From: Thiotrichales bacterium 35-46-9
Lineage (GTDB): Bacteria; Pseudomonadota; Gammaproteobacteria; Thiomicrospirales; Thiomicrospiraceae
Assembly: GCA_002281095.1 (NCBI GenBank)
Contig: NCFI01000010.1
Span: 1-32,767, forward strand
Length of the DNA stretch: 32,767 bases
Direction: 5' to 3'
Shown: positions 16,515 through 32,240 of the stretch, piece after piece
How positions within the stretch are numbered: the first letter of the stretch is position 1
How the letters are laid out: each line of letters starts with the position of its first letter
The notes under the pieces: generated by a model
The model's database searches: none
Seen by the model: the letters and a program-made list of their open reading frames with translations, nothing else
Told to the model about the DNA's origin: nothing
Program-made: the position numbers and the translations under genes

Positions 16515-16552
16515 AACATAGGCTTCGTTGGTGAATAAAAATCATTAGGGCG

Positions 16553-16667
16553 CATTAAAAAACCTAAAAAGGATAGGGGTCTGGGGGAAGGGCTACAGTT
16601 TAGTAGCAAGAACCTCTTTAGTGATACCCTTCCACCAGCCAAATAATAAACTAGGAATGCTAAAATT
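16553..16667 (-). repeat. Dispersed ~115-bp structured repeat, copy A
   Basis: Read on the minus strand this gap between dedA and ispB contains, in order: TTTTAG-x-T-x-CC, GTTTATTATTT, the arm CTGGTGGAAGGG (16638-16627), ~29 less conserved bases, TGTAGCCCTTCCCCCAG, ACCCCTATCC and TTTTTTAATG. The same ordered blocks with near-identical spacing occur at 32061-32178 on the plus strand. The arms pair as a 12-base stem with one mismatch. It lies 57 bases downstream of dedA. No coding potential is seen. It could be a REP/MITE-like element or a terminator-associated repeat. Confidence 0.6.
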
Positions 16668-16724
16668 GAGCGAAGCGAAGTCTTTAGCCAATCCCATTAT
16701 TGTAACCAAAGCGATAGCATGGGT

Positions 16725-25069: not shown

Positions 25070-25954
25070 TTACTTACGGTAAGCTGGACCATTCAGAGTC
25101 AATCCATTGCTCATGTAAGATTCATAAAGCTCTAGCGCTTTAAACTCTTTACCATTTGCAGGGAATGGGAAGCCACGAACTGATTCAATACAGCCAACGT
25201 AACGTTGTTGTAGAGTAACGATGTTACCAGCACTCGCACGGTACACTGGGAAGTGAGTAACGTGACCTAGCATGGGTGATAGGATTTCAGAGCGAATTTT
25301 ACGCCCAGCACTGCTGACGTGACAATTAGCACATGACTGATTCAACTGACCACGACGGGTATGGAACACCATTTCACCTAATTTGTAAGCTTCCAACGCA
25401 CCAGGAGAATCAATTTTGACGCTGATTTTTTGACCGCGAGACTCATCTGCTAGGTAAGTGAGCAAATCGCTTAGTTCTTTATCTCTGCCTGCATACGCAT
25501 AAGGTTTTTCACCATTTGCTGTGCGACATTCATTGATTGCTTGCTCAAGGTTAATCACTTCACCACGTGCGTCATCAAAGTAAGGATACATAGCCTTCAC
25601 TTTTTTGAGGTCGCCATTTAGGCCAGCGCAGGTGTTGTAAGTTTTTCCGTTGGCAAACGGTTTGTTCCAAAGTTTCTTGCCTTCGTCAATATGTTCAACG
25701 TAAGGTGGGAACTCTTCGACGCTTTTGAACTGCTGGTAAGCATCATCACTGAAGATCAGTGCGCCATGACCAAAGTCATCCAGCGTAATGGGTTTACCAT
25801 CAATTTTATTACTGCCGTGCATATCCATCATGTACTTGATCATCGCTTGACGATCAGCTTCTGGATTAACGGTTTTTGCATCATTTGCAGTTGCAGTCAT
25901 ACTGCCTGTTGCAAGTGATAAGAATAGGGTTGTTGTGAGCAGTTTATTATTCAT
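25070..25954 (-). CDS. soxA: Sulfur-oxidation c-type cytochrome SoxA (monohaem type)
   Basis: A 294-residue periplasmic cytochrome with a signal peptide (cleavage near TATA-N24). With SoxX it oxidatively couples thiosulfate to the SoxY cysteine. One haem site is present (C208-A-N-C211-H212). The first haem site of dihaem SoxA is missing; in its place C109 and C143 probably form a disulfide, as in monohaem SoxA. C255 (RYVGCIESVRG) should be the modified haem-ligating active-site cysteine. A GGGGAAA ribosome binding site precedes the ATG. It is the last gene of soxXYZA; a perfect hairpin separates it from soxZ. Confidence 0.95.
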   Translation of the reverse strand: MNNKLLTTTLFLSLATGSMTATANDAKTVNPEADRQAMIKYMMDMHGSNKIDGKPITLDDFGHGALIFSDDAYQQFKSVEEFPPYVEHIDEGKKLWNKPFANGKTYNTCAGLNGDLKKVKAMYPYFDDARGEVINLEQAINECRTANGEKPYAYAGRDKELSDLLTYLADESRGQKISVKIDSPGALEAYKLGEMVFHTRRGQLNQSCANCHVSSAGRKIRSEILSPMLGHVTHFPVYRASAGNIVTLQQRYVGCIESVRGFPFPANGKEFKALELYESYMSNGLTLNGPAYRK

Positions 25955-26001
25955 TTTTTGATTTCCCCTATGGTGGGTCTAGCTTCTGATAGAAGGGGGT
26001 A

Positions 26002-26029
26002 GAACAGGCGAACTCACGCTCGCCTGTTC
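26002..26029 (-). promoter_or_regulatory. Intra-operon hairpin between soxZ and soxA
   Basis: A perfect 10-bp stem GAACAGGCGA / TCGCCTGTTC with an eight-base loop, starting 12 bases after the soxZ stop. It is not followed by a T-run on the minus strand, so it more likely stabilises the soxXYZ mRNA or marks a processing site than terminates fully. Confidence 0.6.
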
Positions 26030-26041
26030 AAGCTTAATGGC

Positions 26042-26356
26042 TTAAGCTAGGTCTACGGTTTGAGTACCCGCATCACCTTTGTTAGAAGTACAAGAAACTT
26101 CTACTTTGTCACCAGCTTTACCAGTTACACGGAAAGCCAAGAATGGGTTTTGAGAAACCGCACCTGACCATTCTGCAACCATTGCTGGAGCGCCATTTAC
26201 TTTAGCTGTTACTTCGTTGATGAAGTCAGCTGGGTAAACTTCGCCAGTTGCTTTGTTTTTACGCGTACCAGTTTCCATTGGGTGCTTGAATAGCGCTTTG
26301 ATCTCAAAAGCGTCACCCTTGTTTTCTGCTTTTAGGCGGAAAGAAATGTCAGCCAT
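26042..26356 (-). CDS. soxZ: Thiosulfate oxidation carrier subunit SoxZ
   Basis: A 104-residue protein without a signal peptide; SoxZ is exported by riding with Tat-targeted SoxY. The family pattern is clear: KGDAFEIKALFKHPMETGTR, GEVYPADFINEVTAKVNG, SGAVSQNPFLAFRVTGKAGD and KVEVSCTSNKGD. SoxYZ carries the sulfur substrate between Sox enzymes on the SoxY C-terminus. AAGGA ribosome binding site. It follows soxY by 62 bases. Confidence 0.97.
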   Translation of the reverse strand: MADISFRLKAENKGDAFEIKALFKHPMETGTRKNKATGEVYPADFINEVTAKVNGAPAMVAEWSGAVSQNPFLAFRVTGKAGDKVEVSCTSNKGDAGTQTVDLA

Positions 26357-26418
26357 GATGTAAATCCTTAAATTTGTTTGTACGATGATTAAGTTAAGTC
26401 AGTGTGCTGTGCGCGAAA

Positions 26419-26886
26419 TTAACCGCCACAACCACCGATAGTTACTTTAACTTCTGACTTAGCTTTGTACAGCTTGCCACCAGCTTTCACAACAGCAACG
26501 ACGTCTTGAGTTTCACCCATTTTCAGACGAACTGAAGTAAAACCAACGCCAGCACCAGAGAATTTAGCAGTACATGCTAAAGGAACTGGATTTTTCACCG
26601 CGAAAACAGCAATTGATTCAACACCTTTCATCGCTGAAGCGTCAACTTCAACTGGTACAACAGCACCGTTTTCTGCAATTGATGGCGCTTTCAATTTAAC
26701 GTCTGCAGAGTCAGCAGCGTTAGTAGCACCGAAAACAGCGGTCATGCCATCATCAACAGTTTTAGTAGCGAATGCTTTTTCATTCCAAGCAGCTAAAACA
26801 GTGTTAGGCGCTAGAATACCAGCGTTAACAGCAACTGCAGTTGCGCCAGTAGCTAGACCAGCTTTTAGGAAAGTTCTGCGTTTCAT
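26419..26886 (-). CDS. soxY: Thiosulfate oxidation carrier protein SoxY
   Basis: 155 residues. A twin-arginine signal (MKRRTFLKAGLATGATAVAV) for folded export, then the SoxY Ig-like domain, ending in the swinging arm IGGCGG whose C153 carries sulfane and thiosulfate intermediates. Forms a heterodimer with SoxZ. An AAGGAGA ribosome binding site is present. Second gene of soxXYZA. Confidence 0.97.
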   Translation of the reverse strand: MKRRTFLKAGLATGATAVAVNAGILAPNTVLAAWNEKAFATKTVDDGMTAVFGATNAADSADVKLKAPSIAENGAVVPVEVDASAMKGVESIAVFAVKNPVPLACTAKFSGAGVGFTSVRLKMGETQDVVAVVKAGGKLYKAKSEVKVTIGGCGG

Positions 26887-26921
26887 GCTTAGGTTTCTCC
26901 TTAGCGAGAGTGGTTATAAAA

Positions 26922-27302
26922 TTAAAGGGTGTACATAAAATCAACAATTTTGTTGATTTCATCGTCAGTTAACACTTTGTGCTTACCGAAAGGCAACATT
27001 TGAGATTCTGGCATCAATTCAACACCTGGCTTACCCCAAATTTTGTCAAACAGCTTTTGACGGTCAGGATAACGGGCTTGCATGGCCATCAAGGGAGGGC
27101 CAATTTCGCCTGGTTCCTCGCCACCAGCAATCATATGACAAGCGATGCAGTTACCTTTAGAGTTGCTGAAAGCAAGCTTTTTGCCTTCTTCAACTGTTGA
27201 TAGCTTCTTCTCTTCTGCTGCAGTTGCAACACTTGCGGTTGCCATAATGGTTGTGACCAATAGGGCTTGAGCAAGTTTGCTTACCCACTGAGATTTCACC
27301 AT
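26922..27302 (-). CDS. soxX: Sulfur-oxidation c-type cytochrome SoxX
   Basis: 126 residues with a signal peptide (cleavage near TATA/AEE, residue ~29). One haem motif C52-I-A-C55-H56 and a probable axial methionine M102 in SQMLPFG, both standard for SoxX. The ATG at 27302 is preceded by a perfect AGGAGG. SoxX pairs with SoxA and takes the electrons from sulfur conjugation. First gene of the operon; a candidate promoter lies 75-110 bases upstream. Confidence 0.96.
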   Translation of the reverse strand: MVKSQWVSKLAQALLVTTIMATASVATAAEEKKLSTVEEGKKLAFSNSKGNCIACHMIAGGEEPGEIGPPLMAMQARYPDRQKLFDKIWGKPGVELMPESQMLPFGKHKVLTDDEINKIVDFMYTL

Positions 27303-27383
27303 GTTTTCCTCCTGTTCGGGTTTTTGCGGGCCAGATACCAAAAGTAGGTTTATTGTGAGCGTTAGCATCTGGTGCTTGGCAAT

Positions 27384-31172: not shown

Positions 31173-32069
31173 GTGCAACAAACAACATGGGTTTTGCCCG
31201 GACAATTATATATGGTGGCAACGCCAATTGGTAATTTAGCTGATATGGGAGCGCGTGCACAGGCAATATTATCGCAGGTCGATATGGTTGCGGCTGAGGA
31301 TACACGTCATACAGGGCAGTTGTTGAGTGCGTTGGGTATTCGTAAGCCCATGATGAGTGTGCATGATCATAATGAGCGTGCGCGCTCGCAGGAAGTGGTC
31401 AAGCGCTTGCAAGCAGGGGAATCGGTGGCTTATGTTAGTGATGCGGGTACACCCGCTATTTCCGATCCGGGCGCTTTGTTGGTGCAAGCGGTTGCGGATG
31501 CGGGTATTAACGTGGTTTCTGTTCCTGGTGCCAGCGCCGTGCTCACCGCCATTGCTGCTTCGGGGTTAGATGTGCGTGCGGGATTTTGTTTTTTGGGATT
31601 TTTACCGACAACGCAAAAGGCGAAGCTAGCATGGCAAAGTGAATTAGCGCAAAGCCATCGGGTGAGTGTTTTTTTTGAGGCGCCACATCGTATTATGGAT
31701 ACACTCGCTTGGTTGGCCGAGGTTTTTCCGCAACGTCAGTTGGTATTGGCGAAGGAGTTGACCAAGTTGCATGAGCGTTTTGTCCGCGGCACTTCAGAGG
31801 AGGTGTTGACTGCATTACAGGAGAATCCTGATTGGCAACGTGGTGAGTTTGTGTTGTTGTTGGATGTCGCGGCAGTGGTTGAAAGCGATGAACCCGTTGT
31901 GTCTTTGCGTTTGACTGAGTTGCTGTATCCGTTATTAGCTGAATTGCCCTTGTCGCAAGCGGTGAAGTTGGTCTGTAGTATGACGGGTCTGAAAAAGAAG
32001 CAGGTTTACGACTTAGCGCTGCAATGGCAGGCGGATACCTCTAAAAACCCCACTTCGTGGAATTTTTAG
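31173..32069 (+). CDS. rsmI: 16S rRNA 2'-O-ribose C1402 methyltransferase RsmI
   Basis: 298 residues, SAM-dependent tetrapyrrole-methylase fold. Seen are LYMVATPIGNLADMGARA, VAAEDTRHTGQLL, AYVSDAGTPAISDPGALL and VPGASAVLTAIAASGL, and the family pattern FFEAPHRIMDTL and LAKELTKLHERFVRG. Methylates C1402 in the ribosomal P-site decoding centre. The start is GTG 31173 with AAGGG about 10 bases upstream. Divergent from lpoA and followed by rnpB, the conserved proteobacterial order. Confidence 0.97.
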   Translation: MQQTTWVLPGQLYMVATPIGNLADMGARAQAILSQVDMVAAEDTRHTGQLLSALGIRKPMMSVHDHNERARSQEVVKRLQAGESVAYVSDAGTPAISDPGALLVQAVADAGINVVSVPGASAVLTAIAASGLDVRAGFCFLGFLPTTQKAKLAWQSELAQSHRVSVFFEAPHRIMDTLAWLAEVFPQRQLVLAKELTKLHERFVRGTSEEVLTALQENPDWQRGEFVLLLDVAAVVESDEPVVSLRLTELLYPLLAELPLSQAVKLVCSMTGLKKKQVYDLALQWQADTSKNPTSWNF

Positions 32070-32071
32070 AG
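32039..32071 (+). terminator. Terminator-like hairpin over the rsmI stop codon
   Basis: CTCTAAAAA (32039-32047) pairs with TTTTTAGAG (32063-32071), with an inner CCAC-TTC-GTGG stem separated by a two-by-two mismatch. The stop TAG (32067-32069) lies in the right arm. The T-run is inside the arm, so termination is plausible but not certain. Confidence 0.55.
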
Positions 32072-32178
32072 TCTCCACGTTTATTTTATTTCTGGTGGAA
32101 GGGATTAAATTAAAGGGCTATATGTATTTTTCGTGTAACCCTTCTCCCAGCACCCCTTCCCGTTAGGGTTTTTAGATG
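32061..32178 (+). repeat. Dispersed ~115-bp structured repeat, copy B
   Basis: Same ordered blocks as 16553-16667 (minus): TTTTTAGAGTCTCC, GTTTATTTTATTT, CTGGTGGAAGGG (32092-32103), ~30 variable bases, TGTAACCCTTCTCCCAG, CACCCCTTCCC and GGGTTTTTAGATG. The arms pair with one mismatch and one G-U where copy A has G-C. It begins in the rsmI stop region and fills the gap before the rnpB promoter. No ORF is seen there. Confidence 0.6.
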
Positions 32179-32240
32179 TCATCAAGCATCTAACGTCGTT
32201 TGATGGTGTTGTGAGTGTGACTGTTTTGGCATTTTCTTTC

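Follow-up and report, generated by a model that had tools for sequence, protein, structure and literature searches.

The window, a stretch of 32,767 nucleotides analysed as a whole, contained two complete copies of a gene-less DNA repeat, designated A and B. Copy A (16548-16695, forward strand) lay between dedA and a polyprenyl synthetase gene, both on the reverse strand. Copy B (32033-32183, reverse strand) lay between rsmI and the RNase P RNA gene, both on the forward strand. Elsewhere in the window, by eye, a run at 25070-27368 resembled soxA, soxZ, soxY and soxX, which fits a sulfur oxidiser, and 1285-1971 appeared to encode a fusion of thioredoxin-like and methionine sulfoxide reductase B domains.

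Extent and structure of copies A and B

The initial annotation had described A and B as a structured repeat of about 115 bp, with ordered sequence blocks in common, on opposite strands and in matching orientation to an upstream gene. The blocks, strands and orientation were confirmed. Local alignment of A with B scored 56, while 2000 dinucleotide shuffles gave a mean of 18.0 and a maximum of 33; chance similarity was thus ruled out. The length was not confirmed. When the copies were aligned with their flanks, similarity broke off abruptly at GGTGACCTCTAAAAACCC and, at the opposite end, at ...GGGGTTTTTAGAGGTGCC(C), so both copies are wider than first reported and the element is about 151 bp long. 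A covariance model matched A at 16548-16694 with 106.6 bits (profile HMM, 90.8 bits), among the more diverged copies, and B at 32034-32183 with 161.4 bits, among the best.

From left to right, the element consists of a terminal inverted repeat (TIR), a small CCCTAACGGG hairpin, a central hairpin CTGGGGGAAGGG...CCCTTCCACCAG, an A-rich spacer and a foldback, GGGNACTCTAAAAATTCCACGAAGTGGGGTTTTTAGAGRTGCC, in which an internal copy of the TIR lies opposite the terminal one (32033-32077 in B, reverse strand). Some copies carry a 23-bp unit, CACCTTGCGGTGCACTAAAGTGT, after the left end, singly at L003:1432 and L052:1474 and four times in tandem in one copy of a sister species (L113:322-414).

The 12-base inverted repeat noticed earlier was present in both copies, with arms at 16581-16592 and 16627-16638 in A (hairpin 16581-16638, forward strand) and at 32092-32103 and 32139-32150 in B (hairpin 32092-32150, reverse strand). 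Its G-C to G-U difference between A and B had been taken as a sign of selection for structure. Across 36 aligned rows the central stem was near-invariant, 98% paired, with a conserved internal mismatch and zero double (compensatory) changes. The lone G-C to G-U difference is therefore weak evidence of structure, and selection on the 12-base stem is not proven. Both-side changes occurred in 6 of the 13 foldback pairs; most were U-A/G-C exchanges at one position or A-U/G-C exchanges at a second. This covarying foldback lies mostly beyond the coordinates first reported.

The near-invariant central stem and the covarying foldback would agree with a family of structured non-coding or cis-regulatory RNAs kept for their fold. 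However, the central stem was free of compensatory changes, and no Rfam family matched the element at gathering thresholds, the matches in the window being RNase P and one tRNA only. Single-sequence folds of the reported stretches only modestly outperformed shuffled sequences (z -1.4 to -2.1). The copies also occupy lineage-specific sites with target duplications, and both window sites are empty in relatives. An RNA family is accordingly very improbable.

Copy number, distribution and insertion sites

The initial annotation had predicted many intergenic copies with compensatory changes. The genome-wide scan proposed there, with a covariance model built from 37 aligned rows, found 79 copies of an interspersed family at E <= 0.01 in the window's 1.83-Mb draft genome (144 contigs), and compensatory changes were confined to the 3' foldback. 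A blastn search with copy B gave 41 matches, and a pattern search gave many additional copies in the same genome. Pairwise identity in a subset of 25 copies of this genome averaged 76% (range 64-91%), which indicates that they are not recent identical duplicates. No conserved reading frame was evident in the alignment of copies. Contig borders fell within copies or just past a TIR in G003 (L095, L096, L099-L101, L103-L105), in the window's genome (C77) and in G001 (C169 and C148). The copy counts are therefore lower bounds, and intact copies of an insertion sequence (IS) may be absent from the assemblies.

Each of the four species sampled from the genus carried the family, with 79, 80, 24 and 34 copies; the assembly of one of them, G002, is only 81% complete. 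No copy was detected by blastn in 53 relatives outside the genus, apart from one 19-base match in genus g2, which sits in a pilin-like gene and was rejected as chance. The covariance model likewise found no copy in four of these 53 genomes, which represent other genera. A pattern scan of GTDB genomes, which demanded exact arms and in which the window's own genome may be lacking, picked up two named MAGs and no others, JN10.006 (JACXUY) and DYST, the latter labelled Thiomicrospira cyclica. Plasmids gave no more than short, weak matches in a distant blastn search, and plasmid-borne copies were rejected. Viral contigs contained no copy by exact pattern. The family is thus restricted to the genus within this sample.

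Most copies had TIRs of about 17 bp at both ends, GGTGACCTCTAAAAACCC // GGGTTTTTAGAGGTGCCC. For the 36 copies that retained both ends, agreement between the bases just outside was set against shuffled flank pairings. The best length of a target site duplication (TSD) was 4 bp, with 73% agreement versus 32% in shuffled pairings (z = 10.6). This setting was the top of many offsets and lengths scanned and its neighbours were nearly equal, while the signal was far above the multiple-testing level. Perfect 4-bp TSDs flanked 16 of the 36 copies. Agreement at 5 bp, counting the terminal C, was also strong (z = 10.2). The TSD would thus be 4 bp, or 5 bp with the terminal C; this is not finally settled, and 4 bp fits IS relatives flanked by TTAA and ATTA. 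Copy A was flanked by CATTA on both sides, at 16543-16547 and 16695-16699 (ATTA if 4 bp), and the flanks of B showed no recognisable TSD.

Both A and B were absent from the orthologous sites of two sister species, G001 and G003. The flanks of A aligned to one G001 contig at 5715-6710 and 6714-7369, with 3 bases between the aligned blocks, no element and a single target copy, CCATAATTG. The empty site of A is nearly base-exact. That of B is not, because the window's genome has about 75 bp on the right side of B that are missing in G001.

High copy number, intergenic placement and a hairpin with a conserved mismatch are also features expected of a REP/BIME-type palindrome moved by a Y1 (RAYT) transposase. 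This explanation is contradicted by the TIRs and TSDs and by the length, about 151 bp versus 20-40 bp. The Y1_Tnp domain (PF01797) was absent from the window's genome and from G001. In G002 and G003 a single Y1 protein each was found, in open frames of 142-144 aa, IS200-like by size. The probability of a REP-type origin is close to nil. The broad initial label of a REP/MITE-like or RNA element is therefore strongly supported in its MITE (miniature inverted-repeat transposable element) part, given the TIRs, TSDs, empty sites and IS5-type ends, and is not supported as a strict REP or as a stand-alone RNA element.

Probable partner insertion sequence and proposed mobilisation

IS remnants in G001 started with GGGCACCTCTAAAAACC and continued into the N-terminal portion of an IS5-type transposase (DUF772, E = 2e-10). 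TIR matches beyond the known copies led to G001 contigs in which GGGCACCTCTAAAAACC was followed by MNLFDLFAHEYRAKRIDQKDPLL... and the N-terminus of a DUF772 transposase. One remnant of about 470 bp retained both TIRs, and C187 and the end of C212 carried other fragments. The TIR core was identical between the degraded IS5 and the MITE. Among NCBIfam models the G001 fragment was nearest to IS5_4, its short length keeping it below the cut-off. A search across the class recovered an intact relative of 377 aa in another family, which matched NF033581 (transpos_IS5_4) with E = 1.2e-87 and 293.9 bits against a cut-off of 140 bits and was 49% identical to the G001 fragment. The sequence GGGCACCTCGAAAAACCCC sits 40 bp ahead of its gene. 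Further IS5-type loci from this search had ends of the GGGAACCTCTAAAAACC / GGGCACCTCTAAAAATT type, and two more elements with such ends had 4-bp TSDs, TTAA and ATTA.

Within the genus, the partner transposase domain PF01609 gave 0 matches in four genomes. PF05598 (DUF772) was missing from the window's genome and occurred across the genus as fragments in G001 only. The genus yielded no intact transposase with these ends; collapsed IS copies may be missing from the draft assemblies. MITEs usually, though not necessarily, share their genome with an intact autonomous partner. Viral contigs did not contain the IS5 fragment. Orphan TIRs in the window's genome (C63 and C19) were considered as IS copies; those examined were truncated MITEs or lone ends beside ordinary genes. 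At L096:419-628 in G003, a TIR/foldback adjoins a stretch whose reverse strand resembles, by eye, an IS21 IstB-like ATPase.

A degraded IS with the same ends and the N-terminal part of an IS5 transposase in a sister species, together with intact relatives elsewhere that have these ends, makes an IS5 (transpos_IS5_4)-mobilised MITE the best reading. A and B are very probably two insertions of one MITE moved in trans by an IS5-family transposase sharing its ends. The common part of MITE and IS is the TIRs alone, and the MITE interior is not a deleted IS. In the proposed mechanism, the TIRs of the element would be recognised in trans by the transposase, which would have moved it and duplicated 4 bp of target at each insertion. 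Surviving copies are mainly intergenic, often right after a stop codon and usually with the foldback end toward that gene, where the foldback may affect the 3' end of the upstream transcript. Since partner IS fragments occurred in one sister species only and not in the window's genome, movement there has probably slowed or stopped.

Foldbacks were also found on their own in G003. Foldbacks of 44 bp with TIRs at both ends stood alone at L097:392-435, with TAAG duplicated, and at L106:366-409. A 64-bp element with the same TIRs (L094:485-548) had a perfect TTAT duplication. These stand-alone forms suggest that the foldback may be a transposable unit in its own right. A further reading builds on the perfect 4-bp duplications at one 44-bp and the 64-bp foldback. 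It proposes a modular IS5-type MITE family, in which such TIR-bearing foldbacks are units that also serve as the right-hand end of the 151-bp element. The family would have moved through one genus as a transposable 3'-end module and deposited stop codons, short C-terminal tails and possibly terminators downstream of genes. We regard this reading as rather unlikely.

Effects on gene ends and relation to known systems

Insertion of B changed the end of a gene. The rsmI frame (31173-32069) overlaps copy B, and its last approximately 11 codons and stop (DTSKNPTSWNF plus stop, 32033-32069, forward strand) lie within the element. The protein ends ...ALQWQADTSKNPTSWNF* in the window, while in the element-free G001 the tail is shorter and different, ...ALQWQQKNQ*. 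The altered rsmI tail is encoded by MITE B.

Gene context was analysed on about 402 kb with simple, naive ORF calls. Of the copies, 34 lay in tandem, 10 in convergent and 9 in divergent gaps, and 2 were inside ORFs. The median distance from stop codon to element was 3.5 bp for ORFs of reasonable length ending nearby. The foldback end pointed toward the stop in 31 versus 13 cases among all facing stops, and toward the upstream stop in 17 versus 6 tandem gaps after in silico excision (p = 0.035). Closeness to stops was 13 observed versus 12.8 expected from short intergenic gaps, and targeting of stop codons was rejected.

These biases, the outward-facing GGGTTTTTAGAG at both ends and the foldback helix with its both-side changes could reflect a domesticated, portable terminator or 3'-end element, whose copies still move, or once moved, as MITEs but would be kept because outward U-rich hairpins end transcription and protect upstream mRNA 3' ends. 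However, a consensus terminator scan gave no terminator for either A or B and one for copy L030. The U5 tract is conserved yet lies partly within the foldback stem. Closeness to stops equals the short-gap expectation, the gene calls are crude, and divergent gaps hold copies too. Maintenance of the TIRs or gene conversion, and not an RNA function, may also account for the covariation in the foldback. Domestication of this kind is unlikely to explain the family. Given the foldback bias and the expected stop closeness, a terminator role of the element is a reasonable hypothesis with weak support, plausible but unproven.

The element explains a recurrent feature of a genus of uncultured sulfur oxidisers and connects a family of MITEs with a named group of transposases. 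Insertions of this kind change gene ends, as in rsmI, and may break assemblies; nothing known is overturned. MITEs themselves are well known, and this is a new MITE family of the IS5 type. In the open-licence literature searched, few papers dealt with MITEs and IS5 together, and none described a MITE from Thiomicrospira.

Several known systems are comparable. RUP of Streptococcus pneumoniae, a non-autonomous element of 107 bp with about 108 copies, is the classic example of linking a MITE to its partner IS, IS630-Spn1, through common ends and target sites (PMC2229807). The probable partner here is IS5 with a 4-bp target, in contrast to IS630 with a TA target (PMC2229807). SPRITE and other small repeats with terminator-like hairpins, covered in a 2024 review, are similar in form (PMC10969869). 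The terminator role is putative in the present family, whose U-tracts lie at least partly within the foldback stem. The transpos_IS5_4 group (NF033581) has the TIR GGG(C/A)ACCTCTAAAAACC and 4-bp TSDs at two loci; its IS is about 1.2 kb long with a transposase gene, whereas the MITE has the ends alone. QMITE1 and QMITE2 of Coxiella burnetii, with 45 and 78 copies, are likewise gammaproteobacterial hairpin-forming MITEs (PMC5896051). Their insertions affecting annotated functional genes are at gene 3' ends, and one, in enhC, is in-frame and supplies a C-terminal tail (PMC5896051). By description, QMITE2 is set apart by duplications of 7-9 bp and TIRs of 23-29 bp, compared with 4 bp, about 17 bp and IS5-type ends in the family described here (PMC5896051).
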